Source of the DNA: a virus
DNA: 25,612 nucleotides
Virus record (IMG/VR): IMGVR_UViG_3300050821_006625
Coordinates: 1 to 25,612 of that record
Direction: 5' to 3' (one strand)
Shown here: positions 366-18,275 of the stretch, in pieces
Position numbering within the stretch: the first letter of the stretch is position 1
How the letters are laid out: each line of letters starts with the position of its first letter
Translations under genes and position numbers: made by a program
The notes under the pieces: model-generated
Databases searched by the model: none
Told to the model about the DNA's origin: nothing
The model's input: the letters and a program-made list of their open reading frames with translations, nothing else

Positions 366-1895
366 TCAGTCCATGAAGCCGTCAAGCTGGGTATGCACGC
401 GGAGGCGGCCGGTGCCCTGGCCCTCCATCGGCACGTAGTCCTGGCGCGCGGCGGCATAGGCCAGCAACACGGCAATGCCGGCGTCGCCGTGGCGCTTTTG
501 CCCCCTGGCGTCGGCGACACGGATGTCGGGGATTCGGGGCACTCCACGCACCATGCGGAATGCGGCCATGTCATCCAGCACGGCGGCATCCTTGGGAAGC
601 TCGATTGAGCCGTCCTCGAAGGCAGCTTTCAGCGGCGCAGTGTTCTCGCGGTACCACTGCTCGCTGAACTTCACCTCCTCGATCCGCTGGGGGCCGTAGC
701 GTTGCTTCGCCACCTCGGCCAGGTAAGCGCCGTTGCCGCCGGCATCGAGCTTGCCCGCGCCAAAGCGCGGGAGGCGGTCGCAGATGTAGAAGAAGATCAG
801 CTCCTGGGCCTTGAAGGGCGCATTTGCAAGCTCGACCAGGAAGGGAAATGCGCGCTTAAGGGTGAGGGTCACCTGTAGGGGCGCGATCACCGTCAGGTCC
901 GCATGCCGGCCGAAGTCCTCTCCTACCGCCGACCGAAGGCCGGGATCGAGCTGCTTCAGCAGCGGTAGCAGCTCGTTCTCGCAGAAGGAAGCAACCTCGG
1001 CCTCCATCAAATCATCCGGCCAAAGCTCCATGCCTTCGGGGGCGCGCCAGCGCACCACAGGCCGGTCGGCCATGCGCGCCTCGATCAGCACGCGGGAGAG
1101 CCACACACCGCTGCCCCTAGACGGGATGCAGAACAGCTCCTCGTCGGCGCCGTCGCCATAGCTCCTGATGAGGTCGGCGCGCCATTGCGCCTCGGCCCCT
1201 GCGCTCCATGCAATGCCGCGAATTCGGCAAATACGCTTGTAGAGGCCATCGGCCAGGGCATCGTCGAGCGTGATGCGATGATGCCCATAGGGCTTCTTGC
1301 CAGCGAGGATCTCCTGGATCAGCTCGTTGAACTCGTTCTCGTCGCCGTCGTGGGTCGAGATAATGTGCACCTGGCCGCCCCAGATCAGCAGCGCCAGGGC
1401 AGCCTTGAGCAGCTCCTTCAGCTCGGGGCTGAAAGCGGCCTCGTCGATGATCACGCGGCCTTGTTTGCCGCGTAGGTTGGACGGCCGCGAGGACAGGGCC
1501 GTGATGCGGAAGCCGCTGGCGAAGCGGATGACGAAGGCCAGGATCGACTTCTCGACTTCGCCGTCTTTGAAGACTTCCTGCGTTTCCTCGATCTCGCCCG
1601 CCACCAGGCCGTAGACCTTGGCCCAGTCGCCGCAATCGCGGATGAACTCCTGGGCCATGTCCTTGTTGTAACCGACGTACCAGGTGTCCATGCCATCGAC
1701 ACGCGAGGCAAGCAGCGCGGAATCCGCAGCTTCGGCCCAGGTGAGGCCAATGCGGCGCGACTTCTCGGCGACCTTGACCGGCGACTCGTCCGCCACCCAG
1801 CGCGCCTGGTAACCCAGGAACAGGCTTCCCACGTCGCCGCCGCCGTCGAGCGGATTGCCGGCTTCCTTGACGGCGCTTTTCAAGTCGGCGCTCAT
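366..1895 (-). CDS. Terminase large subunit (Mu gp28-like)
   Basis: This 509-aa protein is the packaging motor ATPase and nuclease that translocates DNA into the prohead. Residues 45-52 (KSRRIGLT) are the degenerate Walker A-like loop characteristic of Mu-type large terminases, and residues 147-154 (RVIIDEAA) form the Walker B strand with D151/E152. The C-terminal half carries GEDFGRHADLTVI around residue 327, the first acidic strand of an RNase H-fold nuclease. The length is normal for the family. The ATG at 1895 overlaps the small-terminase stop by 4 bp (ATGA), and the stop lies 2 bp before the portal start, so translation is probably coupled along the operon. Confidence 0.93.
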   Translation of the reverse strand: MSADLKSAVKEAGNPLDGGGDVGSLFLGYQARWVADESPVKVAEKSRRIGLTWAEAADSALLASRVDGMDTWYVGYNKDMAQEFIRDCGDWAKVYGLVAGEIEETQEVFKDGEVEKSILAFVIRFASGFRITALSSRPSNLRGKQGRVIIDEAAFSPELKELLKAALALLIWGGQVHIISTHDGDENEFNELIQEILAGKKPYGHHRITLDDALADGLYKRICRIRGIAWSAGAEAQWRADLIRSYGDGADEELFCIPSRGSGVWLSRVLIEARMADRPVVRWRAPEGMELWPDDLMEAEVASFCENELLPLLKQLDPGLRSAVGEDFGRHADLTVIAPLQVTLTLKRAFPFLVELANAPFKAQELIFFYICDRLPRFGAGKLDAGGNGAYLAEVAKQRYGPQRIEEVKFSEQWYRENTAPLKAAFEDGSIELPKDAAVLDDMAAFRMVRGVPRIPDIRVADARGQKRHGDAGIAVLLAYAAARQDYVPMEGQGTGRLRVHTQLDGFMD

Positions 1896-2428
1896 TTGAT
1901 GCCCAGGAACTCGCGCTTGATCTGCTCCGCCATTTCAGGCGTAAGGCCCGCCTTCTTGGCCTTGGCCATCTCGTCGACCTTCTTTGAGGCGTCTTCCAGC
2001 GCCGCTTTACGCGCCCTCAAGCGCGTTTCAAGGCTTGCCCGCTCCGCGGCTTCCAGGTTCTTCAGCGTGGAGGACAGGAAGAACAGCGCCTTGGCGTCCG
2101 GCGTTTCAGCAGAGCCCAGTTGGTCGGCGCTGGCGTCGAAGCACAGCGTCCGCATCATCTCGATCAGGCCCCGGCCGACCTCGCTCTCCGGTTCCTTGCC
2201 GATCTTCTCGGCCCACACCCCGGCGACTTCGCGGGCCTGGCGCATGCGCTTGGCCACCTCCTCGAAGTTCTTGTGGTAGCGGCCCACAGCGGCGCGCGAC
2301 ACAGGGGCGCCGAGGGCGCGCAGGTGGTCGACCACCTGGCTGATGGTTAGCTTGTCTTCCTTGAGCAGCCGGTCCAGCTCGGTGCGGATCTCCGGCGCCA
2401 GCTGGGTGAGTGAGGATTTGCGGCCCAT
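1892..2428 (-). CDS. Small terminase-like protein (DUF3486, Mu gp27-like)
   Basis: This 178-aa protein belongs to the DUF3486 family found immediately before the large terminase in Mu-like phages, where it is taken to be the DNA-recognition (small) terminase subunit. The N-terminus (MGRKSSLTQLAPEIRTEL) is followed by a helix-turn-helix at about residues 27-55 containing TISQVVDHLRALGAPVSRAA. The rest is predicted to be helical and rich in Ala, Glu and Lys, consistent with oligomerisation. The ATG at 2428 shares one base with the stop of the 34-aa gene upstream (TGATG), and the gene's own stop overlaps the large-terminase start. Confidence 0.88.
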   Translation of the reverse strand: MGRKSSLTQLAPEIRTELDRLLKEDKLTISQVVDHLRALGAPVSRAAVGRYHKNFEEVAKRMRQAREVAGVWAEKIGKEPESEVGRGLIEMMRTLCFDASADQLGSAETPDAKALFFLSSTLKNLEAAERASLETRLRARKAALEDASKKVDEMAKAKKAGLTPEMAEQIKREFLGIK

Positions 2429-2532
2429 CAGCGGCCCCCGTCAGCGATGAATCCGCAGACGATGCAGAAGCCGACGATGCACACGCATGGCACCAGGACA
2501 ACGGCCACGATTCCGAGGCGGATGATGCGCAT
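2428..2532 (-). CDS. Tiny membrane protein, unknown
   Basis: A 34-codon frame starts at ATG 2532 and begins MRIIRLGIVAVVLVPC. Almost the entire chain is one hydrophobic segment (roughly residues 5-28) containing four Cys residues, with Arg at both ends. It fits exactly between its neighbours: one base after the stop of the winged-helix gene and a TGATG junction with the small terminase. That placement argues that it is translated. Its role is unknown; a small inner-membrane accessory of the lysis or late operon is possible. It could also be a frame kept open by chance, since it is too short to judge by coding statistics. Confidence 0.5.
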   Translation of the reverse strand: MRIIRLGIVAVVLVPCVCIVGFCIVCGFIADGGR

Positions 2533-2533
2533 G

Positions 2534-2830
2534 TCAGCCTCCAGGGCTCGGCCGCTTCACTCCCGGAACCACGGCGCGCCCCTGCGCCACGTCGAGACCG
2601 CGCGCGGTGAGCGCGGCGATCTGCACCGTGGCTACAGCGGTCACTTTGAGCAGACCCTGCTCTTGCAGCCACGCCAGCTGCGTGTGCACCTGGTCGCGGC
2701 TCGGCCGATGGCCGAACTCTGTCACCGCCGCCTGTAGCGTGGCGCTATTCGCCTCGTAGCCGTCCACCTCCGACAGAAGGCGCAACACGACAAGGCGGAG
2801 ATCCTCGTTCATGTGGTCGCGAAAGCTCAT
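2534..2830 (-). CDS. Winged-helix phage protein (VpaChn25_0724-like, Mu gp26 position)
   Basis: This 98-aa protein has the shape of a winged helix-turn-helix. Helices at about residues 8-20 (LRLVVLRLLSEV) and 27-38 are followed by a recognition region containing SRDQVHTQLAWLQEQGLL, then a short beta wing (VQIAALTARGLDVA) and a conserved-looking VPGVKRP tail. It resembles the small family annotated as VpaChn25_0724 in Mu-like phages. It lies between the DUF2730 gene, which it overlaps by 4 bp, and the tiny membrane gene. Its function in Mu-like phages is not established. The fold suggests DNA binding, and its place in the terminase block hints at packaging or late regulation. Confidence 0.75.
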   Translation of the reverse strand: MSFRDHMNEDLRLVVLRLLSEVDGYEANSATLQAAVTEFGHRPSRDQVHTQLAWLQEQGLLKVTAVATVQIAALTARGLDVAQGRAVVPGVKRPSPGG

Positions 2831-3219
2831 TTCGGCGGTTCCCGCATCAGGAAGGCGTTCATCAAATCCACTTGGCGCGTGGTGGCCTTCATCTCGCCTT
2901 TGAGTTCGCCGACATTGCGGCTGATCTCCGAAGCGAATAGCGAAATGCTCTGCTGGACTGATTGGAAGTCGGAGCGGTCGGGCTGGCCTTTGACCGTTGT
3001 GGCGGTCTCCATCACGGTCAGCTCCATTGCGCGCTGGCGCTGGAAAAGCTCTTCAATGAACTTCTCCAGGCGTTTGTCGCCCTCCTGAGCGATCTGGCTC
3101 ACGGCGGCCACAGCGGCCCGATGCTCGGAGCCGCGATCCTTCGAGCGCGCATAGAGAAAGGCGCTGACGGAAAGGAACAGCGCCACCAGGTCGAGCCCCA
3201 CCTTCACCCACTCCACCAT
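2827..3219 (-). CDS. DUF2730 family protein (Mu gp25-like)
   Basis: This 130-aa protein has one N-terminal transmembrane helix (about residues 7-24, VGLDLVALFLSVSAFLYA) followed by a long soluble stretch predicted to be helical and coiled (residues 35-125). This architecture and its place between the Rz/Rz1 genes and the gp26-like gene match DUF2730 of Mu-like phages. The function is not known. A membrane-anchored coiled coil next to spanins suggests a lysis-related role, but that is inference. ATG 3219 lies 3 bp after the Rz stop, and the stop overlaps the next start by 4 bp. Confidence 0.8.
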   Translation of the reverse strand: MVEWVKVGLDLVALFLSVSAFLYARSKDRGSEHRAAVAAVSQIAQEGDKRLEKFIEELFQRQRAMELTVMETATTVKGQPDRSDFQSVQQSISLFASEISRNVGELKGEMKATTRQVDLMNAFLMREPPK

Positions 3220-3222
3220 TTC

Positions 3223-3801
3223 TTAATTCCCCGTCTTGGTTTGCTCGAAGAAGTCGATCAGGGAGTTGAGCTGCTGCCGGACGGCGGCGCACTCGGCGGC
3301 GTTGGCGATATGGTTGTGGAGGACGTCGGCTTCGGTGAGCCCGGAGTCGAGGTCAGCGCCAGGGGAATCGGCGGCAGCGGTCGGCTGAGCAGATCCGCCC
3401 CCGGCATCGGGCAAGGCGGGATCGAGGGCGCTGTTCCACAGGCTGAGATAGCCGCCAGTGAAGATGCAGCGAGGAAGTGTTTCGAGAGGCGCGCCAGGCG
3501 CCGGGCGATAGCTGACGGTGACATTTGGAACCCTCTGCTGGAGCTGAGCTTCAAGCGCAGCGCTGCGGGAGCGCTCCGCTTCGTACTTGGCCGAGATGTC
3601 GTTGCTGATGGCCTGCTGCTTGAGGAGCTGTGCGGCGTGGTCGAGCTGCGCCTGCCCGGCGGCGACCTGGTCGGACTCGGACTTGTCGTGAAAGCCCTTG
3701 TAGTAACCGCCGCCGGTCAGCAGCGCCACGATCAGCGCGCCGCACAGCACCTCGGCGCACCACTGCGGAATGCCCAGCCTGGTGAGGAGAGCGAGAATCA
3801 C
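3223..3801 (-). CDS. Rz-like i-spanin
   Basis: This 192-aa inner-membrane spanin subunit would act with an outer-membrane lipoprotein to fuse the inner and outer membranes in the last step of lysis. A single transmembrane helix lies near the N-terminus (residues about 15-34, containing GALIVALLTGGGYY), followed by a coiled-coil-prone periplasmic region (about 38-90, QAQLDHAAQLLKQQA). A Pro/Gly/Ala-rich linker and a conserved-looking C-terminus containing AAECAAVRQQLNSLIDFFEQ follow. The start is a GTG that overlaps the holin-like gene's stop (GTGA), so translation is probably coupled. A complete Rz1 frame lies inside it. Confidence 0.8.
   Translation of the reverse strand: MILALLTRLGIPQWCAEVLCGALIVALLTGGGYYKGFHDKSESDQVAAGQAQLDHAAQLLKQQAISNDISAKYEAERSRSAALEAQLQQRVPNVTVSYRPAPGAPLETLPRCIFTGGYLSLWNSALDPALPDAGGGSAQPTAAADSPGADLDSGLTEADVLHNHIANAAECAAVRQQLNSLIDFFEQTKTGN
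3258..3524 (-). CDS. Rz1-like o-spanin lipoprotein nested in Rz
   Basis: An 88-aa frame wholly inside the Rz gene, in a different register on the same strand, starts at ATG 3524. GAGGG lies 7 nt upstream as a ribosome site. It begins MSPSAIARRLARLSKH, a basic n-region, followed by a hydrophobic stretch and a lipobox I-S-A-C with Cys29 as the lipidated residue. The mature chain of about 60 residues is rich in Pro, Ser and Thr (PIPPTP-like runs), the hallmark of Rz1 o-spanins, which span the periplasm from the outer membrane to meet Rz. Nested Rz1 genes are well known in lambda-like and Mu-like phages. The lipobox and proline richness make a chance frame unlikely. Confidence 0.8.
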   Translation of the reverse strand: MSPSAIARRLARLSKHFLAASSLAAISACGTAPSIPPCPMPGADLLSRPLPPIPLALTSTPGSPKPTSSTTISPTPPSAPPSGSSSTP

Positions 3802-4040
3802 ACCTTGCCTCCAGCGCCCATGTCGGGCGGCGTGCGGAAGTGGATGCCCTGAGTGGTGATCGCGCGCAGGAACATGTTCACGATGGGCAGCGCGAAGGCG
3901 ATGCCTGCGTAGACGTTGGGGGTCAGCAGGCCATGCAGCTGCGCGATGTTCTGCTGCGCGAGGTCAAGACCGCCGAGCAGCAGCAGGGCCAGGGCGTTCA
4001 CCTGCAGCGTGCGGCTCTTCCACCAGGCTTTCGAGAACAT
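3798..4040 (-). CDS. Putative holin (two-TM small membrane protein)
   Basis: This 80-aa protein has two predicted transmembrane helices: about residues 13-30 (VNALALLLLGGLDLAQQ) and about 44-60 (YAGIAFALPIVNMFLRA). They are separated by a short loop with Pro41, and a short soluble tail ends the chain. Its size, topology and place between the lysozyme and the spanin pair fit a small holin that opens the inner membrane to release lysozyme. Similar WWKSRTLQVNALAL-type proteins sit in lysis cassettes of Mu-like prophages. The stop overlaps the Rz start by 4 bp. An antiholin or an unrelated membrane role cannot be excluded. Confidence 0.7.
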   Translation of the reverse strand: MFSKAWWKSRTLQVNALALLLLGGLDLAQQNIAQLHGLLTPNVYAGIAFALPIVNMFLRAITTQGIHFRTPPDMGAGGKV

Positions 4041-4049
4041 CGGACGCTC

Positions 4050-4358
4050 CTACTTGCGGCGGCGCAGCTGCGCCTTGTGGCGATTCCGGTTGCGGCGCTT
4101 GCGGGCGCGGCGCTTCTCGGCGGCGACCGTGGTGGGCTTGCCCGGCCAGGTGAAGTGCGCGGCGCGCGGCGCATTGCGGATGAAGAGGTCGCGGCCCTTT
4201 GGGGCGGCGGAGGGTGCGTTCATCGCCTCGGCCGTGGCCTTGAGGTCCGCAGGCATTTCGCCCGGCGCTTCGTGGGACGGTGAGAGGAAGCTCTGAACGC
4301 GCGAGAAAGCCGCATGGAGGCCGGAGGACAGCCGAATCGGCAAGAGACGGTCGAACAT
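4050..4358 (-). CDS. Unknown protein with strongly basic C-terminus, in lysis cassette
   Basis: I do not recognise this 102-aa protein. The ATG at 4358 is chosen because it shares a base with the lysozyme stop (TGATG). A GTG at 4373 would add five residues. The N-terminal part (MFDRLLPIRLSSGLHAAFSRV) looks amphipathic, the middle is Ala/Pro-rich, and the last 25 residues contain about 15 Arg or Lys (for example RRARKRRNRNRHK). There is no signal peptide or hydrophobic segment. It lies between lysozyme and holin-like genes, so it may be a late accessory protein. The basic tail could bind nucleic acid, acidic proteins or membrane phospholipid. Confidence 0.6.
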   Translation of the reverse strand: MFDRLLPIRLSSGLHAAFSRVQSFLSPSHEAPGEMPADLKATAEAMNAPSAAPKGRDLFIRNAPRAAHFTWPGKPTTVAAEKRRARKRRNRNRHKAQLRRRK

Positions 4359-4837
4359 CAGGGAGGACTCCACGGCAGACCGAGGAAGAGGGCACGTTCG
4401 GCGGTGCGGCGCTTCTTCAACCCCATCGACTCGATGACGCGGTTCGTTTTCGCGTCGTGTTCCTTGTCCCAGCGGAGGAACTGCTCGGCGGCCTCGGCCT
4501 TCTTGCCGGCCAGGACCATGAAGCGCAGCGTCGAGGTTTGAAACGGCTTTGCACCGGCGTTGAAGGTGAAGCAGGTCAGCGCATCGAACTCGCGCTGGAG
4601 CAGGTCGACCTTGGAGGTGACCCAGGCGTTGACGCAGTCCTCGGCCCAGCCGAGATCCTGGGTCAGGATCTCATCGCCCTCGGCGCGCGTATGGTTGAAG
4701 CGCTCGCCGGCCCGGATCAGATGGCCCCAGTAGATGGTGGGCTTGCCGGCCTGGTCGAGATAGACGTCGGGGTTGAAGGACTCGTATGCCTTGAGAAGGT
4801 CGAGTCCGGCGCTGCTGATTTTGAGCTTGGCTCCCAT
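4358..4837 (-). CDS. Endolysin, GH24 lysozyme (T4 lysozyme-like)
   Basis: This 159-aa protein cleaves the glycan backbone of host peptidoglycan at lysis. The T4-type catalytic triad is present with exact T4 spacing: Glu19, Asp28 and Thr34 in KAYESFNPDVYLDQAGKPT. Downstream, REFDALTCFTFNAGAKPF is the conserved C-lobe Asn motif region of GH24 enzymes. The usual TxGYGH segment reads TIYWGH here, an uncommon variant. No signal peptide or signal-anchor is seen, so export should depend on the holin-like protein. It is the first gene of the leftward late operon, 31 bp downstream of the 43-bp repeated element. No convincing Shine-Dalgarno sequence precedes the ATG. Confidence 0.9.
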   Translation of the reverse strand: MGAKLKISSAGLDLLKAYESFNPDVYLDQAGKPTIYWGHLIRAGERFNHTRAEGDEILTQDLGWAEDCVNAWVTSKVDLLQREFDALTCFTFNAGAKPFQTSTLRFMVLAGKKAEAAEQFLRWDKEHDAKTNRVIESMGLKKRRTAERALFLGLPWSPP

Positions 4838-4868
4838 GCACGCAGCTTGGCGTGCGGGAGAGGATCGA

Positions 4869-4911
4869 TCAGTGGGGGAACTACTTCACCCCGCGTTGCG
4901 CGGGGGGATGA
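4869..4911 (-). promoter_or_regulatory. 43-bp outward-facing element, left copy (candidate late promoter/insulator)
   Basis: This segment is a perfect 43-bp inverted copy of 17065-17107. Read on the minus strand it starts TCATCCCCCCGCG and ends TTCCCCCACTGA, and contains the palindrome CCCCGCG-CAA-CGCGGGG (4889-4905 on plus). It ends 31 bp before the lysozyme ATG and begins 29 bp after the lipoprotein stop, so it separates the lysogeny operon from the lysis operon. Identity stops abruptly on both sides. Position and duplication suggest a late-promoter or activator site. No clear -10 hexamer is visible, and the hairpin lacks a T-run, so it is not a standard intrinsic terminator. Confidence 0.65.
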
Positions 4912-4940
4912 CTAAAGGCTAGGTGGTGAAGGCGGCGGCG

Positions 4941-5513
4941 TCAATTATTGGCGGTGCCATCTACGTCTTTCACCCAATGAATGCGTCCGCGATCATCAGC
5001 AAACCAGTGGCGTTCAGGCTTTCCATCCGGATTGGGCACCACCTTGAGCTTGCCGCTCGAAGCATCTGCCATTAGCTCTCCGGCAATAGTTTTCGTGTCG
5101 GAGTCCAAATATTTCTCGGCAACGAGATGTAGCGAGCCGTAACCGGTCACCCACATTTGCCGAACATGGATCAGCGAGCATGGAGCCTTGCAGTCAACCA
5201 CGACCGCATCGCGGTCGGAGAGCTTCTGGACTGCCTGATAGACACCGTTGTTGAGTCCGTGAAAGGTAAACATCTGGATCTCGGGCGCAGCCTGTCCTTG
5301 CTGCCGCTCGGCATCGCTAATCTCCCCGCGATACCCGTATTGATACCCATCTTTGACCGAGTAGAAATGGTCCGGTATCTGCGGTGCCGGGGCCGAAGGC
5401 TGTGATGCGGGTTCAATCTTGGCAGGCTGAGCTGCAGCCGTCGAAGGCTGCTGACCGTTGCAGCCGGCGAATGCCAAGGAAGCGAGAGAGGCTAGAACAA
5501 ACCGTTTGAACAC
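4941..5513 (-). CDS. Secreted lipoprotein, unknown (moron candidate)
   Basis: This is a 190-aa protein with a lipoprotein signal: MFKRFVLASLASLAFAGC, with the lipobox FAGC placing the lipidated Cys at residue 18. A low-complexity Gln/Ala/Pro linker (about 20-48) follows, then a soluble domain of about 140 residues with two Cys in a VVDCKAPCSL segment. I do not recognise the domain. The start is GTG 5513, with a GGGGGA ribosome site just upstream. It is the last gene of the repressor transcript and is more AT-rich than the structural genes, which suggests a lysogenic-conversion or superinfection-exclusion cargo gene. It is not a normal Mu component. Confidence 0.75.
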   Translation of the reverse strand: MFKRFVLASLASLAFAGCNGQQPSTAAAQPAKIEPASQPSAPAPQIPDHFYSVKDGYQYGYRGEISDAERQQGQAAPEIQMFTFHGLNNGVYQAVQKLSDRDAVVVDCKAPCSLIHVRQMWVTGYGSLHLVAEKYLDSDTKTIAGELMADASSGKLKVVPNPDGKPERHWFADDRGRIHWVKDVDGTANN

Positions 5514-8049: not shown

Positions 8050-9984
8050 GTGTCGGCCGTCCTCGCACTTCGCCCCGCCGCCGCGCTCGCCGTCGTCGAG
8101 CGCACGCCCTGGGATCTGGCCAGCGACTCCGCGCGCGAGGAGGCAATGGCGCGCGGCGTGCTGGCCCGGCGCATCGCGCAGAAGATCGGCGACGGCATGT
8201 CGCGCCGCATGGCGGTGAACACTATCCTGGCGGAGATCCGCACCGGCGAGATGGTGCAGGCGATCAAGGCCCTCAACGGCACGCCCTCTGACGCCACCCT
8301 CAACCGCTGGGTCAGCGCCTTCCAGGAAGGCGGCCTGAACGCCCTTCTGCCGCAGTACAACGGACGGCCGCGCGGCACCTACGGCTGGGAGGCCCGCGCC
8401 AGCTTCCTATTCCAAAGCCCGAGCCGGCCTGGCTTCCACACCGTCGCCGACTGGCTCCGCGACGAGGGCTTCGACAACGCCACGAACAGCCGCGTCCGCC
8501 GCTACCTCAAGAGCCTGCCTTCCAACCAGGCCGAGACCAGCCCCAAGCGCCTCGGGCGCCATACCTACGACCAGACCATCAAGCCGCATCACCGCCGCGA
8601 CTACAGCGACCTGGCCGTAGGCGAGGCGATGGTCAGCGATGGCCACTGCATCAAGGCGGTGGTCTATCACCCGACCACGGGCGACCTGTTCCGCCCCGAG
8701 GTGACGCCGATCCTCGACGTCAAGTCCAACTACTGCTACGGCTTCTGGATCGCCGAGGCCGAGAGCAGCATGGACACCGTCTATGCGCTCAGCTCGGTGA
8801 TGGCGCGCTACGACCAGGTACCGGCGTGGTTCATCAGCGACCCAGGCCCCGGCTTCGACAACATCCGCACCGCCAGCCTGTTCGACCGCCTGGGCATCAC
8901 GCACTCCAAGACGCTGCCGGGCAATGCGCGCGGCAAGGGCTTTGGCGAAGGCTTCTTCCACATCCTCACCGAGCGCTTCAGCAAGCGCTTCGACACCTTC
9001 TGCGGCGATGACCGCGTCGACGACGCCCTGGCCCGCATGCGGACCAAGGTGAAGCGCGGCGAGCTGGTTCCCCCGACCTTCGATCAGTTCAAGGACGCGC
9101 TGGAGCAGTACCGCGTCCGCTACAACGCCAAGCCCCAGCCGCACTCGGTGAAGCTGCTGGGCAAGTCGCCCAACGACATGATGGGCCAGCTCAAGCACAA
9201 CCCGCTCGGCATCCCGGTCGAGGATCTGCTGCGCCCTGACTTCAGCGCCACCGTGCGCAAGTGGGAAGTCCGCTTCCGCAACCGCTTCTACCGCGCCAAG
9301 GAACTGGCGGCCTACGAGGGCCGCGAGGTCCGGGGCCAATACGACGAAAACGACGAGAGCCGCGTGTGGGTGCGCGACGAGAAGGGGCGACTGATCTGCA
9401 TCGCGCACCTTCACGCCAAGACCGCCTTCGCCAAGGAGAACGTCGCCGCCGATGTGCGCGCCAAGTCCCTGGCCGCCAAGGTGCGCCGGCTGCAGCACCA
9501 CATCGACGAGGCCACGAGTCGCCATCGCGCGCCCATCAGCACGGCCGGGGTCATCGACGCCCTGGAGCATGGCTTCGCGCCGCAGACGCTTCAGGCGCCG
9601 TCACCGGGCCTGCAGCTGCTCGCCCAGGGTCATAGCTTCACGCCGTCGGAGCCGCCGCAGCCGGTAGTGCGCGAGATCTCCGCGCGCCCCGTATCGCGCG
9701 AGGCACAGGAGCGCCTGGCGCACGCGCTGGAGCATGAGCAGCCCGAGGAGACAGCAGACCAGCGCTTCGCGCGTGCCAAGGCCTTGCAGGCCGGCCAGGA
9801 GCGCGGTGAAGGCATCGGTGGCGACGACAAGACCTGGCTGAGTCGCTACGTCACCACATCCGAATACCGCAGCCGTGAGCGGCTGCTGGCTGATTTCGGC
9901 GGGATCTCCGGCGTGCCGGAGTCCCGCCTCACCAGTGGGGCCGTTGCAGCGGCGATCCACGTACAACAGGAGAGCGAAGTATGA
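8050..9984 (+). CDS. DDE transposase (MuA-like, rve integrase core)
   Basis: This 644-aa protein catalyses strand transfer for integration and replicative transposition. The N-terminal 160 residues contain helix-turn-helix-like segments (AVNTILAEIRTGEM; SDATLNRWVSAFQEGGLNAL). The catalytic core has Asp197 (AMVSDGHCIK), Asp264 (WFISDPGPGFD) and Glu300 (GKGFGEGFF), with 35 residues between the second Asp and Glu, a DD35E spacing. A MuA-type beta-barrel follows (about 390-470), then a basic coiled segment (KVRRLQHHIDEATSRHR). The start is GTG 8050 right after the upstream stop, and the ATPase start overlaps its stop by 4 bp. Its length is close to MuA. Confidence 0.95.
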   Translation: MSAVLALRPAAALAVVERTPWDLASDSAREEAMARGVLARRIAQKIGDGMSRRMAVNTILAEIRTGEMVQAIKALNGTPSDATLNRWVSAFQEGGLNALLPQYNGRPRGTYGWEARASFLFQSPSRPGFHTVADWLRDEGFDNATNSRVRRYLKSLPSNQAETSPKRLGRHTYDQTIKPHHRRDYSDLAVGEAMVSDGHCIKAVVYHPTTGDLFRPEVTPILDVKSNYCYGFWIAEAESSMDTVYALSSVMARYDQVPAWFISDPGPGFDNIRTASLFDRLGITHSKTLPGNARGKGFGEGFFHILTERFSKRFDTFCGDDRVDDALARMRTKVKRGELVPPTFDQFKDALEQYRVRYNAKPQPHSVKLLGKSPNDMMGQLKHNPLGIPVEDLLRPDFSATVRKWEVRFRNRFYRAKELAAYEGREVRGQYDENDESRVWVRDEKGRLICIAHLHAKTAFAKENVAADVRAKSLAAKVRRLQHHIDEATSRHRAPISTAGVIDALEHGFAPQTLQAPSPGLQLLAQGHSFTPSEPPQPVVREISARPVSREAQERLAHALEHEQPEETADQRFARAKALQAGQERGEGIGGDDKTWLSRYVTTSEYRSRERLLADFGGISGVPESRLTSGAVAAAIHVQQESEV

Positions 9985-10730
9985 AGAGCAAGATTGTCCC
10001 GATCAAGAATATCGCGCGCGTGGCCGAGGCCGCCGATGCGCTGATGCATCGCCCGCACGGCATGCCCGGCATGGGCGTGGTCCACGGCGAGAGCGGCCTG
10101 GGCAAGACCACCACCATCAGCTACCTGGTCAACCAGGTGAACGGCGTCTTCGTCCGCGCGATGGCCAACTCCTCGCCGTCGTCGCTGCTCGGCGACATCC
10201 TGCACGAGCTGGACGTTGCGCCGCGCGGCGGCTGCGCGCAGATGACCAGGGCTGCGGTCGAGGCCCTGGCCGCTTCGAACCGCCCGCTGTTCATCGACGA
10301 GATGAACCTGGTGCTGGACAGCCGCCGCGCCCGCGAAATGTCCGAGACCATGCGCGACATCCACGACCTCTCGACCGTGCCGGTGATCCTGGTCGGCGAC
10401 GACACCGTGCTGCCGCGCCTGCAGCACCGCGAGCAGCTCTATAACCGTATGGCCCAGCAGGTGCGCCTGCAGCGCTGCGACGCCGAGGACGCCCGCATGC
10501 TGGCCGACCGGCTGTGCGAGGTGCGCATCGAGGACGATCTGCTGGAGGCCATCGTCAAGTCGCCCGACATCGCGGGTGTCACCCGCCGCATCCTCGTCGC
10601 CCTGGCGCACTGCGAAGCCCGCGCCCGTGCCAAGGGCAAGGACAGCATCAATCTGGCCGGCTTCGGCCGTGGCGGCTTCTTCTCCGGCGACGCCGAGCCC
10701 ACGTCCGGCAAGGTGACGGTGATCCGGTGA
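9981..10730 (+). CDS. AAA+ ATPase, transposition target protein (MuB/TniB-like)
   Basis: This 249-aa ATPase is the expected partner of the transposase for target capture and target immunity. Walker A is GESGLGKTT at residues 36-44, and Walker B is LFIDEMN around residues 103-109 (Asp106, Glu107). A sensor-1-like ILVGDD follows, with an arginine-rich helical lid after residue 170. It is shorter than MuB at the N-terminus, which here lacks a separate helix-turn-helix domain, as in TniB-like and other phage versions. It overlaps the transposase stop by 4 bp (ATGA) and is overlapped by the following GTG. Confidence 0.9.
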   Translation: MKSKIVPIKNIARVAEAADALMHRPHGMPGMGVVHGESGLGKTTTISYLVNQVNGVFVRAMANSSPSSLLGDILHELDVAPRGGCAQMTRAAVEALAASNRPLFIDEMNLVLDSRRAREMSETMRDIHDLSTVPVILVGDDTVLPRLQHREQLYNRMAQQVRLQRCDAEDARMLADRLCEVRIEDDLLEAIVKSPDIAGVTRRILVALAHCEARARAKGKDSINLAGFGRGGFFSGDAEPTSGKVTVIR

Positions 10731-11230
10731 ACCTGGTCCGCGCCCACATCGTCACGCGCGGCCTGAGCCGCGAGCTGATCGTGAAGCTCTACGAGCAGAT
10801 CGATCCGCGCAACGCGTTGGCGCAGCAGCGCTTCCTCGGCGTGCTGCGCGAGCATGGCGCGATGCGCGAGGCGGCGAAGAAGGCGCGCGCGCTTGTCTCT
10901 CGGCCACCGGCCGTGCAGACCGGGCGGCAGCGCATCTGGACCTCCATGCGCATCGAGGTGTCCTTCACCGCGCAGAGCATCGCGGCCTCGGCCCAGGTGG
11001 AGCTGGTGACGGCACGCCAGTACATCAACGCCCTGATCGGCGCCGGTTACGCCCGCAAGACCCGCCAGACCAGCTTCGAGGTCGGCGACTACACCACGTT
11101 CCGCCTGGTCAAGAACACCGGACCGCACGCGCCGCGCCTGCGCAGCGACGGTAGCGCCATCCTCGATCTCAACCGGCCTGAAGGCGAGCGCGAAATACCG
11201 ATACGCAAGGCGGAGGCTGCCAATGGTTGA
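10727..11230 (+). CDS. Unknown early winged-helix protein
   Basis: This 167-aa protein starts at GTG 10727, inside the ATPase stop (GTGA). Residues about 65-115 have winged-helix character: IEVSFTAQSIAASAQ, then LVTARQYINALIGAGYA, then a beta wing (TSFEVGDYTTFRLVKNTG). The N-terminal third is a basic helical region. It may bind DNA and act in transposition or early regulation. I do not recognise a named family. It overlaps the next gene by 8 bp. Confidence 0.75.
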   Translation: MNLVRAHIVTRGLSRELIVKLYEQIDPRNALAQQRFLGVLREHGAMREAAKKARALVSRPPAVQTGRQRIWTSMRIEVSFTAQSIAASAQVELVTARQYINALIGAGYARKTRQTSFEVGDYTTFRLVKNTGPHAPRLRSDGSAILDLNRPEGEREIPIRKAEAANG

Positions 11231-11543
11231 GCCCGAGTGGATCGGCGTGCTACGTGCCCATGCCTCCGCGCACGGGCAGAAGGCGTCCGGCCGCGCCATC
11301 GGCTACAGCGGCAGCTACGTCTGCTCGATCATCAACGGGAAGATCACCAGCGGTTTAGACGCCGTTCAACAGGCCGTCGAAGGCGCGCTGATGGGCAAGA
11401 CCGTGGACTGCCCCGTCATCGGCGACATCCCCCGCAACCGCTGCCTGGAACACCAGGCCAAGCCGTTCGCCGCCACCAGCCCCATGCGCGTGGCGCTGTC
11501 ACGCGCCTGTCCCACATGCCCCAACAGGAGGGCCGCATCATGA
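11223..11543 (+). CDS. Small HTH protein with Cys pairs, unknown
   Basis: This is a 106-aa protein. The first 60 residues look like an XRE-type helix-turn-helix (GQKASGRAIGYSGSYVCSII followed by NGK). The C-terminal part carries CPVIGD, CLEHQ and a final CPTCPNRR, a possible metal-binding or disulfide cluster. It overlaps its upstream and downstream genes, in line with coupled translation in the early operon. Similar HTH-plus-cysteine proteins occur in Mu-like prophages, but no function is assigned that I know of. Confidence 0.7.
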   Translation: MVEPEWIGVLRAHASAHGQKASGRAIGYSGSYVCSIINGKITSGLDAVQQAVEGALMGKTVDCPVIGDIPRNRCLEHQAKPFAATSPMRVALSRACPTCPNRRAAS

Positions 11544-12311: not shown

Positions 12312-12554
12312 ATGGCCACCTGCCCAATCCACGGCTGCACCAACACCCTCAAGGTCGGGCTGCTCATGTGCGGCCGGCACTGGCGCCTGGTGCCGCGCAC
12401 CTTGCAGAAGGACGTGCATCGCACCTGGAAGCACTGGATGCGCGTCCCCCATGAGAACCGCATCGCCTACGTCGACGCGGTCAAGGCCTATGGCGTCGCC
12501 CGCGACGCGGCATTCGCCCACGTCAACAAGCTGGAGTCACCGCTATGCACCTGA
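12312..12554 (+). CDS. Small zinc-finger-like protein
   Basis: The N-terminus of this 80-aa protein has C4-x4-C9-x10-C20-x2-H23 (MATCPIHGCTNTLKVGLLMC followed by GRHW), a plausible zinc-binding knuckle. A basic helical region (RTLQKDVHRTWKHWMRV) and a final helix follow. It starts 9 bp after the previous stop and overlaps the next gene by 10 bp. It may be a nucleic-acid-binding early protein. The family is not recognised with certainty. Confidence 0.7.
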   Translation: MATCPIHGCTNTLKVGLLMCGRHWRLVPRTLQKDVHRTWKHWMRVPHENRIAYVDAVKAYGVARDAAFAHVNKLESPLCT

Positions 12555-14593: not shown

Positions 14594-14797
14594 ATGCGAG
14601 CCTGGACCTTCAGCGAGGCCAGCGTCGCCCAGGCGCTGGATCAATGGCAGGCACGACACATGGAAGCGGCCAGCGGCAACGGCGAGACCATGACGCGCCT
14701 GATCGAGCAGCGCAAAGCCTTCGAGGAGTTCCTCTACTCCGACGAGGCCGCGAAGCTGCGCATCCGCTCCTGTGAACCGGGCAATGGCCAAGGCTAA
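14594..14797 (+). CDS. Unknown small protein (67 aa)
   Basis: ATG 14594 follows the Gam-like stop by one base. The product begins MRAWTFSEASVAQALDQWQA and is a single mostly helical chain with an acidic middle (FEEFLYSDEAAKLR). No motif is recognised. It overlaps the start of the GemA-like gene. Small genes of this kind commonly lie between gam and gemA in Mu-like phages. Confidence 0.6.
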   Translation: MRAWTFSEASVAQALDQWQARHMEAASGNGETMTRLIEQRKAFEEFLYSDEAAKLRIRSCEPGNGQG

Positions 14798-15458
14798 GGC
14801 CAGGAAGAAGCCGGATGCGCGCCAGAAGGATCTGGCGCGCATCCATATCCTGGCCGGCCAGCTCGGCCTGGACCGGGAGTCCTACGAGAACGTCTTGTGG
14901 GCCAACGGCCGCGTGGAATCCTCGAAGGATCTGGATGAACACGGCCGGCGCCAAGTGATCGCTCATCTGGAGTCGCGCTTGCCTGCGTCCCAGCGTTACA
15001 AGGGACGCCCCAACAATATCGATTCCCTGCAGCGCCAGGAGCTGAAGAAGATCGAGGCGCTGCTCGCCGATGCCGGCCGGCCCTGGGCCTATGCCGTGCA
15101 CCTGGCGCGCACCATGTACAAGCGCGAGGCCCTGGAGTTTTGCTCCGTGCCCCAGCTCGTCGGCATCCTCACCGCGCTCGATAAGGATGCCCTGCGGCGC
15201 CACAGCGCCCGCATGCAGCTGCTGTGGGGCGACGGCTGGCAGGAACAGGCGCAGCGGATCGCGGAGCTGCTGTTCGGCCTGGAGAGAACCCACAACGCTG
15301 CCGCCAACTCTAAGCATCTCGGCTTGGCGCTGGGCTGGTGGGACGGCCGGATTGAAGCATGCTGCGCATGGCCGGTTGCACTAGACGGCTTCGCAAAGCC
15401 GCCGATGTGCTGCGGCGGCTGCTACCAGCGCGCCTTGCGCCAGGCTGGCCGCATCTGA
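14784..15458 (+). CDS. GemA-like regulatory protein (DUF1018, Mu gp16-like)
   Basis: The product is about 224 aa. The N-terminal 75 residues fit the DUF1018 (GemA/Mu gp16) pattern: a lysine-rich start (MAKAKARKKPDARQK), IHILAGQLGLDRESYENVLW, and later HGRRQVIAHLESRL. In Mu, GemA modulates host DNA gyrase and gene expression. A C-terminal extension of about 140 residues includes a helical domain (QELKKIEALLADAGRPWAYA) and a Cys-rich end (CCAWP; MCCGGCYQ), which may bind metal. The GTG at 14772 is an alternative start. The stop overlaps the activator's ATG (TGATG). Confidence 0.75.
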   Translation: MAKAKARKKPDARQKDLARIHILAGQLGLDRESYENVLWANGRVESSKDLDEHGRRQVIAHLESRLPASQRYKGRPNNIDSLQRQELKKIEALLADAGRPWAYAVHLARTMYKREALEFCSVPQLVGILTALDKDALRRHSARMQLLWGDGWQEQAQRIAELLFGLERTHNAAANSKHLGLALGWWDGRIEACCAWPVALDGFAKPPMCCGGCYQRALRQAGRI

Positions 15459-15877
15459 TGGGCGCCGCCCCCGCCTTCGCCGTCGACGAACGCCTGCTGC
15501 CGCCGCAGGCGCGCGTCCTGGTGCGCGGGATCGGCTTCCCCGACACGCTGAAGATCCTCAAGGCCAGGGGCGGCACGCGCATACGGCGCCCGCTGCGGGG
15601 CGAGGCCAGCCCGATCCTGGTCAACCTGGTTGGTGAGGAGAAGGCCGCCAAGGTGGTCCAGCTCTTCGAGGGAAGCGAGTTCATCGACTTCCCGATGTGC
15701 GACAAGCTGATCCAGCAGATCCGCGACGCGGAGATCCGCACCAAGCGCCCCGGTACCACCCTGCACGCCCTGGCGCTCGAATACGGGCTGACCCGGCGGT
15801 GGATCATGGTCATTTGTGGGGAAGATCAGGCCGAAAAGCACCCGGACCTCTTCGCCGAGGGGCCGGAACCCGTTTAA
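15458..15877 (+). CDS. Mor/C-like transcriptional activator
   Basis: This 139-aa protein starts at ATG 15458, inside the GemA-like stop (TGATG); the frame upstream is a shadow. The C-terminal half fits the Mor/C family: a beta strand near IDFPMCDKLIQQIRD followed by a helix-turn-helix, TLHALALEYGLTRRWIMVIC (residues 101-120). In Mu, Mor activates the middle promoter and C activates the late promoters. As the last gene of the early operon it is the natural candidate for switching on the late arms, possibly through the 43-bp elements. Whether it works as Mor, as C or as both cannot be told here; no second homologue is seen. Confidence 0.75.
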   Translation: MGAAPAFAVDERLLPPQARVLVRGIGFPDTLKILKARGGTRIRRPLRGEASPILVNLVGEEKAAKVVQLFEGSEFIDFPMCDKLIQQIRDAEIRTKRPGTTLHALALEYGLTRRWIMVICGEDQAEKHPDLFAEGPEPV

Positions 15878-15906: not shown

Positions 15907-15998
15907 AACCGGGGGCTGCGGCTGCGGGTGTGGCTCCAAAGCGCCTGAATCGCTCCCTGGCCCGCGCAGGGCCAAATCCAGAACTGAGGTCAGACCCG

Positions 15999-17057
15999 AT
16001 GTCCGAGCAAAGCAAAATCGAATGGACCGACTCCACCTTCAACCCGTGGATCGGCTGCACCAAGGTTGGCCCTGGCTGCGACCACTGCTACGCGGAGGCG
16101 CTGATGGATACCCGCCACCATCGCGTGAAGTGGGGTTCGGGCAATTCCCGCTCCCGCACATCCGCTGCTAACTGGAAGTTGCCCGAGCGGTGGAACCGGG
16201 AGGACTTCTGCGAATGCACCTGCGGCTGGCGCGGTGTGCTGAGAGAGCCTCGCTGCCCGGTATGCGACAGAAATGGAATCGTTTCAGAGGCGCGCCGCCG
16301 CGTGTTCTGCGCCTCCCTGGCCGATGTGTTCGACAACGAGGTAGATCCGGCGTGGCGCGAGGATCTGTTCGCGCTGATCGATTCGACCCTGAACCTCGAC
16401 TGGCTACTGCTCACCAAGCGCATCGGCAACGTCGAGCGGATGCTGTCGGCGATGGGGCGTCCGAATTTCCCCCGCAACGTCTGGCTCGGTATCACCGTGG
16501 TCAACCAGCCAGAGGCGGACCGCGATATCCCGAAGCTCTGGCAGGCCCCGGCCAGCGTCCGTTTCCTCAGCGTCGAGCCCATGCTTGGCGAGATCGACCT
16601 GACGCCGTGGCTCCCGCACGAGTACAACGCTCCCAGCGGCAGCGGACAGAACTGCGCCACCTGCGGCACCCTGACCACCATCCTGCACCATCCCTACGGC
16701 AAGCCCTGGCTTGACTGGGTCATTGCCGGGGGCGAGAGCGGCCATAATGCTCGGCCGTCACATCCAGCCTGGTACCGCAACCTGCGCGATCAATGCGCCT
16801 CCGCCGGCGTGCCGTTCCTGTTCAAGCAGTGGGGTGAGTTCGAGCCGCGCGAAGAGTGGTCACCCCACCTCGGCGGCGGCCGCTTCGAGCCGATGCTGGC
16901 AGTCATGAAGGATGGGAGCCAATGCCCGCATGACGTTGCGCCACAGGATGTCGGAGCGCATCGCATGGCCCGCGTCGGCAAAAAAGCCGCTGGCCGCAAG
17001 CTCGATGGCGCGGACCATAACGGCTACCCATTGCGCGACCGGCGGCCCACGCCCTAA
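15999..17057 (+). CDS. Phage Gp37/Gp68 family protein (DUF5131), cysteine-rich
   Basis: This 352-aa protein is set by ATG 15999 (MSEQSKIEWTDSTFNPWIGC), the canonical N-terminus of this family, with GAGG about 10 nt upstream. Cys20, Cys27 and Cys30 form C-x6-C-x2-CYAE, which resembles an iron-sulfur or radical-SAM-like cluster. An insert at residues 71-89 carries C71-x-C73-x-C75 ... C86-PV-C89, a zinc-ribbon-like motif. Later motifs include LTKRIGNVERML, VWLGITVVNQPEADRDI, FLSVEPMLGEI, WVIAGGESG and PFLFKQWGE, all typical. The biochemical role is not established. It sits alone between the activator and the late element, like a cargo gene. Confidence 0.88.
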   Translation: MSEQSKIEWTDSTFNPWIGCTKVGPGCDHCYAEALMDTRHHRVKWGSGNSRSRTSAANWKLPERWNREDFCECTCGWRGVLREPRCPVCDRNGIVSEARRRVFCASLADVFDNEVDPAWREDLFALIDSTLNLDWLLLTKRIGNVERMLSAMGRPNFPRNVWLGITVVNQPEADRDIPKLWQAPASVRFLSVEPMLGEIDLTPWLPHEYNAPSGSGQNCATCGTLTTILHHPYGKPWLDWVIAGGESGHNARPSHPAWYRNLRDQCASAGVPFLFKQWGEFEPREEWSPHLGGGRFEPMLAVMKDGSQCPHDVAPQDVGAHRMARVGKKAAGRKLDGADHNGYPLRDRRPTP

Positions 17058-17064
17058 GCTGACC

Positions 17065-17107
17065 TCATCCCCCCGCGCAACGCGGGGTGAAGTAGTTCCC
17101 CCACTGA
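17065..17107 (+). promoter_or_regulatory. 43-bp outward-facing element, right copy (candidate late promoter/insulator)
   Basis: This is the perfect inverted partner of 4869-4911. It starts TCATCCCCCCGCG, contains CCCCGCG-CAA-CGCGGGG (17071-17087), then TGAAGTAGTTCCCCCACTGA. It begins 7 bp after the DUF5131 stop and ends 34 bp before the preferred protease ATG, close to the 31 bp seen between the left copy and lysozyme. A second fold, GGGG(T)GAA-GTAG-TTCCCC, would use the same GGGG run. This is the place where Mu has its PI late promoter. Confidence 0.65.
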
Positions 17108-17141
17108 CCCGTGACCCATGCCCGCCGACACTGGCCGGGCA

Positions 17142-18275
17142 ATGGGAACCACAAAACGCCTCCAGATTTTCAAGCCCGGCCGGCAGATCACATCTGCAGG
17201 CGAGCCCATCTCGTTCAGCGAGTCCGATCTGCTGGCCAGCGCCAAGGCCTACGACCCGAAGCTGCACGAGGCGCCCATCGTCGTCGGCCATCCGAAGGAC
17301 ACCGCGCCGGCCTATGGCTGGATCAAGTCGGTCAGCTTCGAGGAAAAACACCTGGAGGCGGTGCCGCACCAGGTAGACCCGGCCTTTGCCGAGATGGTGA
17401 ACGGCGGCAAGCACTTCAAGAAGATGTCGGCGCAGTTCTACCGCCCCGAGTCCCCCAACAACCCGGTCCCCGGCGTCTGGTACCTGCGTCACGTCGCCTT
17501 CCTCGGCGCGCAGCCTCCGGCCGTGAAGGGCCTGCGGGACGCCAGCTTCTCTGATTCCGAAACCGGCGTGGTCGAGTTCACCGACTGGGACGGCGTCCAG
17601 GTCGCCGGCCTGTTCCGCAGCATGCGCGACTGGCTGATCGGCAAGTTCGGCCAGGACGAGGCCGACAAGGCGCTGCCGCCCTGGAACGTCGACGGCGCTC
17701 TGCTGAGCGCCGCCACGTCCGAAGACGACGAAGACGACACCACCTCATCTCCTTCCTACACCGAGGGCAACATGACCCCTGCACAGATCCAGGCCCGCGA
17801 GGCCGAGCTGGCCACGCGCGAAGCCGCGCTCAAGACCCGCGAACAGAAGGTGGCCACCACCGAGGCGAGCTTCTCCGAGCGCCAGACGCAGCTGGATGCC
17901 GCCGCCGCCAAGGCGCGGCGCCAGGAGTTCGTCGATTACGCCGAGGTGCTGTTCAAGGCCGGCAAGCTGCTGCCCGAATACCGCGAGGGCCTGGCGTCGT
18001 TCATGGCCGACATCCGCCCGGACGAGGTGGTGGAGTTCGGCGAGGGCAACGCCAAGAAGTCCGAGAAGCGCGGCGCCTGGCTGAAGGACTTCATCTCCAA
18101 GCACCTCAAGCAGCAGGTCAGCTTCGGCGAGCATGCCCGCGAATCGGCCGTCGAGCTGGATGACCCCAGCTCCGTCGCCGCCGCCGCCGTCGAGTTCCAG
18201 GAGTCGGAGGCCAAGGTCGGCCGACGCGTCGACATCGCCACCGCCGTGGCCCACGTCAATTCCAAGCGCGCCTGA
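17142..18275 (+). CDS. Prohead protease/scaffold (Mu I-like)
   Basis: The 377-aa product from ATG 17142 begins MGTTKRLQIFKPGRQI, the usual start of Mu I-type proteases; ATG 17118 would add eight residues. The protease domain spans residues 1 to about 190 (SFSESDLLASAKAYDPKLHE; APIVVGHPKDTAPAYGW). It is followed by an acidic linker (SEDDEDDTTSS) and a C-terminal coiled-coil scaffold region. The enzyme assists prohead assembly and then cleaves the scaffold and itself. It is the first gene of the rightward late operon. An in-frame internal start probably yields the scaffold alone. Confidence 0.88.
   Translation: MGTTKRLQIFKPGRQITSAGEPISFSESDLLASAKAYDPKLHEAPIVVGHPKDTAPAYGWIKSVSFEEKHLEAVPHQVDPAFAEMVNGGKHFKKMSAQFYRPESPNNPVPGVWYLRHVAFLGAQPPAVKGLRDASFSDSETGVVEFTDWDGVQVAGLFRSMRDWLIGKFGQDEADKALPPWNVDGALLSAATSEDDEDDTTSSPSYTEGNMTPAQIQAREAELATREAALKTREQKVATTEASFSERQTQLDAAAAKARRQEFVDYAEVLFKAGKLLPEYREGLASFMADIRPDEVVEFGEGNAKKSEKRGAWLKDFISKHLKQQVSFGEHARESAVELDDPSSVAAAAVEFQESEAKVGRRVDIATAVAHVNSKRA
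17772..18275 (+). CDS. Scaffold protein from internal in-frame start (Mu Z-like)
   Basis: ATG 17772 is in frame with the protease, lies directly after its acidic linker and has GAGGG at 17763-17767 as a ribosome site. It would give a 167-aa protein (MTPAQIQAREAELATREAAL onward) that is a long coiled coil followed by a basic/acidic helical end. In Mu, the scaffold Z is made from such an internal start in gene I, so the same arrangement is inferred here. Direct evidence would need N-terminal protein data. Confidence 0.65.
   Translation: MTPAQIQAREAELATREAALKTREQKVATTEASFSERQTQLDAAAAKARRQEFVDYAEVLFKAGKLLPEYREGLASFMADIRPDEVVEFGEGNAKKSEKRGAWLKDFISKHLKQQVSFGEHARESAVELDDPSSVAAAAVEFQESEAKVGRRVDIATAVAHVNSKRA

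Follow-up and report, generated by a model that had tools for sequence, protein, structure and literature searches.

A DUF5131 cargo gene in a Mu-like phage encodes a probable radical-SAM enzyme whose predicted fold resembles that of spore photoproduct lyase

A Mu-like bacterial virus, known here from a record of 25,612 bases (the window), carries a lone cargo gene of the DUF5131 (Gp37/Gp68) family whose product is very probably a radical-SAM enzyme. Computation places the protein in this family, gives the family a radical-SAM-like barrel and a near-invariant cysteine motif, and finds an optional insert, a cargo position and no gene for a three-Cys-motif partner (TcmP). Judged by structural models, spore photoproduct lyase (SPL) is the nearest solved relative of the fold. 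The gene is otherwise ordinary-looking cargo from a family already known but still uncharacterised: no functional study of DUF5131 was found in the literature searched, which left subscription journals and most preprints outside. The reading we prefer, a radical-SAM cargo enzyme that acts on nucleic acid or nucleotides and helps lytic growth, has as a whole an estimated probability of about 0.5.

The record encodes a MuA-like transposase (8050–9984, plus strand; PF09299, 5.3e-14), a MuB/TniB-like ATPase (9981–10730, plus strand; PF13401, 1.4e-15, and PF05621, 2e-10), a Gam-like protein, a GemA homologue (14772–15458, plus strand; PF06252, 2.3e-12), a Mor-family transcription activator (15458–15877, plus strand; PF08765, 1e-7, and PHROG 836, late transcriptional activator, 5.8e-24), a head maturation protease (17118–18275, plus strand; PHROG 976, 2.4e-107) and a capsid protein. 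A search of viral contigs for close relatives of Mor and GemA returned none. The DUF5131 gene occupies 15999–17057 on the plus strand, from an ATG at 15999 to a stop codon at 17055–17057, and encodes 352 amino acids; a ribosome-binding-like GAGG with a 9-nt spacer can be read directly upstream (15986–15998, plus strand). Its GC content (0.63–0.67) shows no contrast with the surroundings (0.64–0.69), and the 124-nt leader folds no better than shuffled sequences (z −0.79).

Membership of the family is clear. The protein matches PF07505 over residues 4–344, covering the whole profile (positions 1–243 of 243), at E 1.3e-85 and 287 bits against a gathering threshold of 28.9, and it matches PHROG 2045, a group with no assigned function, at 1.5e-101. 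All 65 positions that are at least 95% conserved in 205 other long-type members are identical in the window protein, which therefore looks functional. What distinguishes it from the family at large is a pair of enlarged inserts and a site behind Mor in a Mu-like phage; few DUF5131 relatives sit in transposable phages. One homologue is labelled 'phage Gp37Gp68 (ssDNA-annealing protein)' in PMC5463345, a designation that found no support in this analysis.

Thirteen cysteines are present, at residues 20, 27, 30, 71, 73, 75, 86, 89, 104, 219, 222, 266 and 309. Their conservation was assessed in a set from which proteins shorter than 215 residues had been removed, leaving 280 rows that were thinned at 85% identity to 226, the window protein included. 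The N-terminal C-x6-C-x2-C motif picked out by the initial annotation (C20, C27 and C30; 16056–16088, plus strand) is indeed there, and C20 is kept in 225 of the 226 and C27 and C30 in all, so the motif is not a chance arrangement. C266 (16794–16796, plus strand) follows with 219 of 226 and is kept in both subfamilies. C104, on strand 2 (16308–16310, plus strand), is found in 201 members and replaced by valine in 21; it is characteristic of the long (phage) type, and valine predominates at this position in the short forms that are paired with TcmP. At the level of the motif only, the cluster resembles the NPYRGCxxGCxYC[FY]A of PA0069/SPL-type radical-SAM proteins. The window protein has CX6CX2C in place of the canonical CX3CX2C; variant spacings do exist among accepted radical-SAM enzymes. 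A single divergent member of the family set, L196, shows C-x3-C-x2-C at the same place. This DUF5131-like protein (L196:1483-2262) sits on a very long branch and may connect DUF5131 with other families of radical-SAM enzymes.

The fold was approached through two models. That of the window protein itself reached a pLDDT of 76 and a pTM of 0.79, with values of about 56–82 near the cysteine motif; Foldseek returned nothing at E ≤0.001 for it (DesII came top), and VIA-align put SPL at ranks 1–5, with Z scores of 9.9–10.0. A compact relative, L032, was modelled from an alignment with 71 others, the window protein among them (alignment A6, made of the window protein and 71 of 95 listed rows), and gave a pLDDT of 94.4 and a pTM of 0.91. 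For L032 the top six Foldseek matches are all SPL (E 3.3e-5 to 2.4e-4, probability 1.00), and the same six come first in VIA-align (Z 13.2–13.4, rmsd 3.4–3.7, 204–207 residues aligned), followed by a viperin-like enzyme (Z 11.2), lysine aminomutase (10.7) and later rows that are mostly radical-SAM proteins. SPL (PDB 4fhc, 4fhf) is the nearest solved fold in VIA-align for both models. The radical-SAM (beta/alpha) barrel is thus recognised on the relative, and the window's own model agrees with it more weakly.

Sequence profiles point the same way, with limits. All 27 DUF5131 proteins compared match the NCBIfam model for radical SAM mobile pair protein A, rSAM_mob_pairA (TIGR04471), the best at 2.3e-25. 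The window protein does so at 5e-9 over residues 98–200, with a score of 35.9 bits that lies far below the curated equivalog cut-off of 355. The general Radical_SAM model PF04055 is matched by one of the 27 (2.4e-4) and, at E 1, not by the window protein, which consequently falls outside the curated sequence models for radical SAM. Nine of the 27 also match GP88 (PF17338) weakly, the best at 1.3e-5, and the window protein does not. In profile–profile comparison by hhalign, an SPL-like/PA0069 profile aligned with DUF5131 over the cysteine motif only (21 columns, E 2.6e-5, probability 75); a deeper alignment gave a weaker result, again confined to the motif (probability 29, E 6e-4). The alignments comprised 40 of 81 proteins (A1), 27 hand-picked proteins (A2) and 10 of 14 SPL/PA0069 loci (A3). 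The window protein alone matched no solved structure by sequence at E 10, and CREB-binding protein, which the A1 profile matched among solved structures at E 0.8 or weaker, was set aside as a chance match. A radical-SAM connection is already hinted at in deposits: that of phi3LM21 notes 'Gp37_Gp68; rSAM_mob_pairA', and that of Erythrobacter phage ZS04 has a 'radical SAM domain-containing protein'. The addition made here is a well-supported radical-SAM assignment with SPL as the nearest fold. The Fe–S or radical-SAM centre suggested by the initial annotation is accordingly borne out at the level of prediction, by the L032 fold, the rSAM_mob_pairA matches and the canonical spacing in L196.

The second cysteine cluster, which the same annotation described as an added insert of this member, is present as described but is not special to it. 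Insert 1, a zinc-ribbon-like segment with C71, C73, C75, C86 and C89 (16209–16265, plus strand), lies inside a longer variable insert whose length is bimodal among the 226 members, with 4–16 residues in most and 26–52 in the remainder, and whose cysteines mostly number either none or at least three. A four-cysteine pattern occurs at insert 1 in 28 of the 226, typically as ECxxCGWRG...CPxC, and at insert 2 in 14. The window protein has C-x-C where relatives usually show C-x2-C, so zinc binding is plausible at most. When the presence of the insert-1 pattern was traced on a FastTree tree built without the insert columns, 19 changes were counted, compared with a mean of 26.8 and a minimum of 24 in 200 shuffles; support for the tree is weak, with stars on 32 of its 223 inner branches, and the distribution is therefore read only as patchy. 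The module is optional and scattered over the tree, and appears to have been gained, lost or exchanged repeatedly. Insert 2 (residues 198–239; 16590–16715, plus strand), with C219-x2-C222, is hypervariable, its length in relatives ranging from 9 to 84 residues with variable cysteines, and in the window protein model pLDDT falls below 50 over residues 214–233.

The DUF5131 gene stands alone, with Mor upstream and a 60-nt element (17048–17107, plus strand) followed by the head protease downstream, just as first annotated, and the cargo status proposed for it is strengthened by comparison with related phages. The closest DUF5131 protein found, L229 (57.5–57.8% identity), is encoded in a syntenic phage, there in the early region between homologues of the window ORFs 11223–11543 and 12312–12554. 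In this syntenic relative, the only one whose corresponding locus was inspected, Mor and protease are only 22 nt apart and the slot is empty. The gene thus moves between slots, as mobile cargo would. A mis-assembly at the 60-nt inverted repeat was considered; that the protease directly follows Mor in the syntenic relative too speaks against an artefact at the Mor–protease junction. Only three of the first 166 relatives (L070, L106 and L167) and three of the 80 later ones (L229, L243 and L297) lie beside genes like the phage genes of the window. The position behind Mor and ahead of the late element suggests expression before the late switch. Promoter and terminator scans found nothing on the gene's strand and no promoter-like site before the gene, which leaves position as the sole guide to timing.

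Relatives outside phages are often paired with a TcmP gene, as the initial annotation stated, and this is common enough, with the refinement that the pairing belongs to another branch of the family. One sample took in 101 genomes of a single phylum, that of G017, a Caldilineaceae bacterium (hence Chloroflexota) whose genome contains locus L161. PF07505 was found there over its cut-off at 27 places, and at 16 of these, by hand count, the same contig has a match to the TcmP model TIGR04474 no more than about 1.5 kb away. Three strong TcmP genes occur in 20 genomes that have a window-type gene, and each adjoins a different, shorter DUF5131 gene: TcmP pairs with the shorter subfamily. The model TIGR04474 matches protein L171:1414-2256, of the RlmJ rRNA methyltransferase type, at 1.5e-7, and the same protein is PF04378 (RlmJ) at 7e-75, which suggests that TcmP is an RlmJ-like methyltransferase; a C-terminal GMT-wHTH domain is over the Pfam cut-off in three of four TcmP proteins scanned. 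No TcmP gene is present in the 25,612-base record, itself a fragment, in keeping with the partner's reported absence. None was found in 166 relative loci (L002–L167) or in a further 80 (L229–L308, some on the same contigs), many of which end at contig ends. With TcmP in none of these 246 loci of window-type relatives, lack of the partner is normal for the phage type. TcmP-like genes were detected in 13 of 50,697 phage records (one query, E 1e-3). Gordonia phage Bosnia (NC_070790.1) carries DUF5131 at two places, with the best match at 47.6 kb, and a TcmP-like gene that lies near 36.9 kb and is not adjacent to that match. In PMC12445080, a single table of co-regulated genes includes SMa2243, a TcmP gene, next to SMa2245, the defence gene Hna.

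A search with the window protein found matches in 151 of the 50,697 phage records, among them Xanthomonas phage CP2 with a homologue of 50% identity, and a search with a short DUF5131 member found them in 409 of 72,556 plasmid records. Of 14 control genomes, Thermotoga maritima alone had a DUF5131 protein over the cut-off. The genes flanking long-type members were scanned against Pfam at E 0.001 (75 of 196 downstream and 75 of 195 upstream); when neighbours were clustered, the largest clusters proved to consist of reading frames that overlap within the DUF5131 gene and were left out of account. The 150 genes include five C5 DNA methylases, three N6/N4 methylases and one D12 methylase, four phage integrases, three ASCH and three DUF1643 proteins and two Lar anti-restriction proteins, and most of them matched no named nucleic-acid family. 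Such surroundings fit the accessory region of temperate phages, with DNA modification and anti-restriction genes and no fixed partner. The neighbours are diverse and mostly unmatched, and the argument that they provide about the substrate is correspondingly weak.

What might such an enzyme do for the phage? Built like SPL, it would hold a [4Fe-4S] cluster on C20, C27 and C30, bind S-adenosylmethionine and cleave it to a 5'-deoxyadenosyl radical. The radical could then abstract a hydrogen from its substrate, a nucleic acid or a nucleotide, with base modification or repair as the outcome, while the variable loops, among them the zinc-ribbon-like insert of the present member, may tune the binding of substrate or partner. 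Presumably expressed with the early or middle genes before the late switch, the enzyme would most likely benefit lytic growth, whether through modification, counter-defence or some other route. Nucleic acid or nucleotides are somewhat favoured as the substrate, on the strength of the RlmJ-related TcmP partner of the short subfamily and of the methylase, ASCH, DUF1643 and Lar neighbours. A precedent for nucleic-acid substrates within the SPL fold group comes from PMC3765255, where SplB-like radical-SAM photolyases are described as associated with DNA repair systems. That the benefit lies in lytic counter-defence or modification is a tentative suggestion.

Could the protein then simply be a repair enzyme of the SPL type that reverses a DNA lesion, whether in the phage or in its host? 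SPL is the top fold match for both models in VIA-align, the tyrosine that follows the last cluster cysteine is shared with SPL-like proteins (C30-Y31; CYL in L216), and C104 lies near the position of the hydrogen donor, a role that a strand-2 cysteine plays in SPL. Aligned by eye with D109 as the anchor, however, the SPL-like cysteine (ASCYTDP in L216) falls on the invariant S106 and not on C104, two residues away; the short subfamily, moreover, mostly has valine at 104, and no repair gene was a fixed neighbour among the 150 scanned. A repair enzyme of this kind is quite improbable, and, given the CX6CX2C spacing in place of the CX3CX2C of SPL and a donor position apparently taken by S106, the protein should not be called an SPL even with a VIA-align Z of 13.4 on the L032 model. 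A radical-SAM enzyme for small molecules, of the viperin type or another, that yields a nucleotide analogue or modified metabolite and leaves polymers alone would suit the second fold group, a viperin-like enzyme with CTP, and the occasional nucleotide-enzyme neighbour (a dATP/dGTP pyrophosphohydrolase in one of 75; MazG-like). Such an enzyme is nonetheless unlikely, with SPL about 2 Z units higher in the same VIA-align list and a zinc-ribbon insert that better suits the binding of a polymer or a protein.

PADLOC knows the TcmP–DUF5131 pair as PDC-M30 and PDC-M41, with TcmP as subunit A and DUF5131 as subunit B, and the window protein is a recognisable B-subunit homologue (PDC-M41B, 1.2e-47; PDC-M30B, 2.7e-47). 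It might accordingly be half of a prophage-borne system directed against other phages, its partner lost or located elsewhere; PMC10855318 reports a PDC-M30 prediction for 32 strains of P. aeruginosa, of which 68.8% were resistant. The window protein is longer than its paired counterparts and is phage cargo. The adjacent TcmP gene of PDC-M30/M41 is missing from the record, a fragment, and from the 246 loci of relatives, and the DUF5131 gene follows Mor in the lytic direction and does not lie beside the repressor; on these two counts the defence reading is rather improbable. Finally, the non-canonical cysteine spacing and the additional zinc-ribbon-like cysteines of some members would be compatible with a structural TIM-barrel protein that holds zinc at the cluster site and performs no radical chemistry. 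C20, C27 and C30 are, however, the most constant cysteines of the family and belong to a radical-SAM-like barrel, and the member L196 has the CX3CX2C spacing, so this explanation has very little chance of being right.

The preferred reading, a radical-SAM cargo enzyme with nucleic acid or nucleotides as its substrate while the phage grows lytically, gives a testable enzymatic hypothesis to a common phage and plasmid family that has had no known function. If the enzyme does act like SPL on nucleic acid, it would bring a radical chemistry to the modification and counter-defence repertoire of phages and help to explain the TcmP–DUF5131 defence candidates. On a wider and rather speculative view, phage DUF5131 proteins might edit nucleic acid in infection and together make up a widespread class of radical-SAM enzymes, related to SPL, that has gone unrecognised. 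Loops exchanged as modules, the zinc ribbon among them, would set their specificity, and the TcmP-paired cellular forms would provide the matching modification-based defence. To the family picture the present analysis adds the optional zinc-ribbon-like module, the partner-free state as the rule for the phage type, and the empty slot in one relative.

The 60-nt element behind the gene has a second copy. The first, before the head operon, contains a hairpin, CCCCGCGCAACGCGGGG, at 17071–17087; the other, before the lysis/terminase operon (4869–4928, minus strand), is an 87% inverted repeat of 17048–17107, and an exact 17-mer of the element occurs twice in the record, against 0.09 expected. The inverted repeat stands at the head of each of the two late operons, which diverge: lysis/terminase is on the minus strand, protease/capsid on the plus strand. 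It reads as a shared control element, and possibly also as an inversion site for the 12-kb early region between the copies. To the left of the repressor, the minus strand carries the terminase and lysis genes (366–5513). Beetrevirus PM105 and phiSHP3 differ from this arrangement in that their terminase, portal, head and protease genes all run in one direction; a terminase-like gene divergent from the protease is also seen in L310/L311. Just before the second copy of the element lies a lipoprotein-like gene (4941–5513, minus strand; a signal with ...FAGC and no Pfam match), in a position that mirrors that of the DUF5131 gene.
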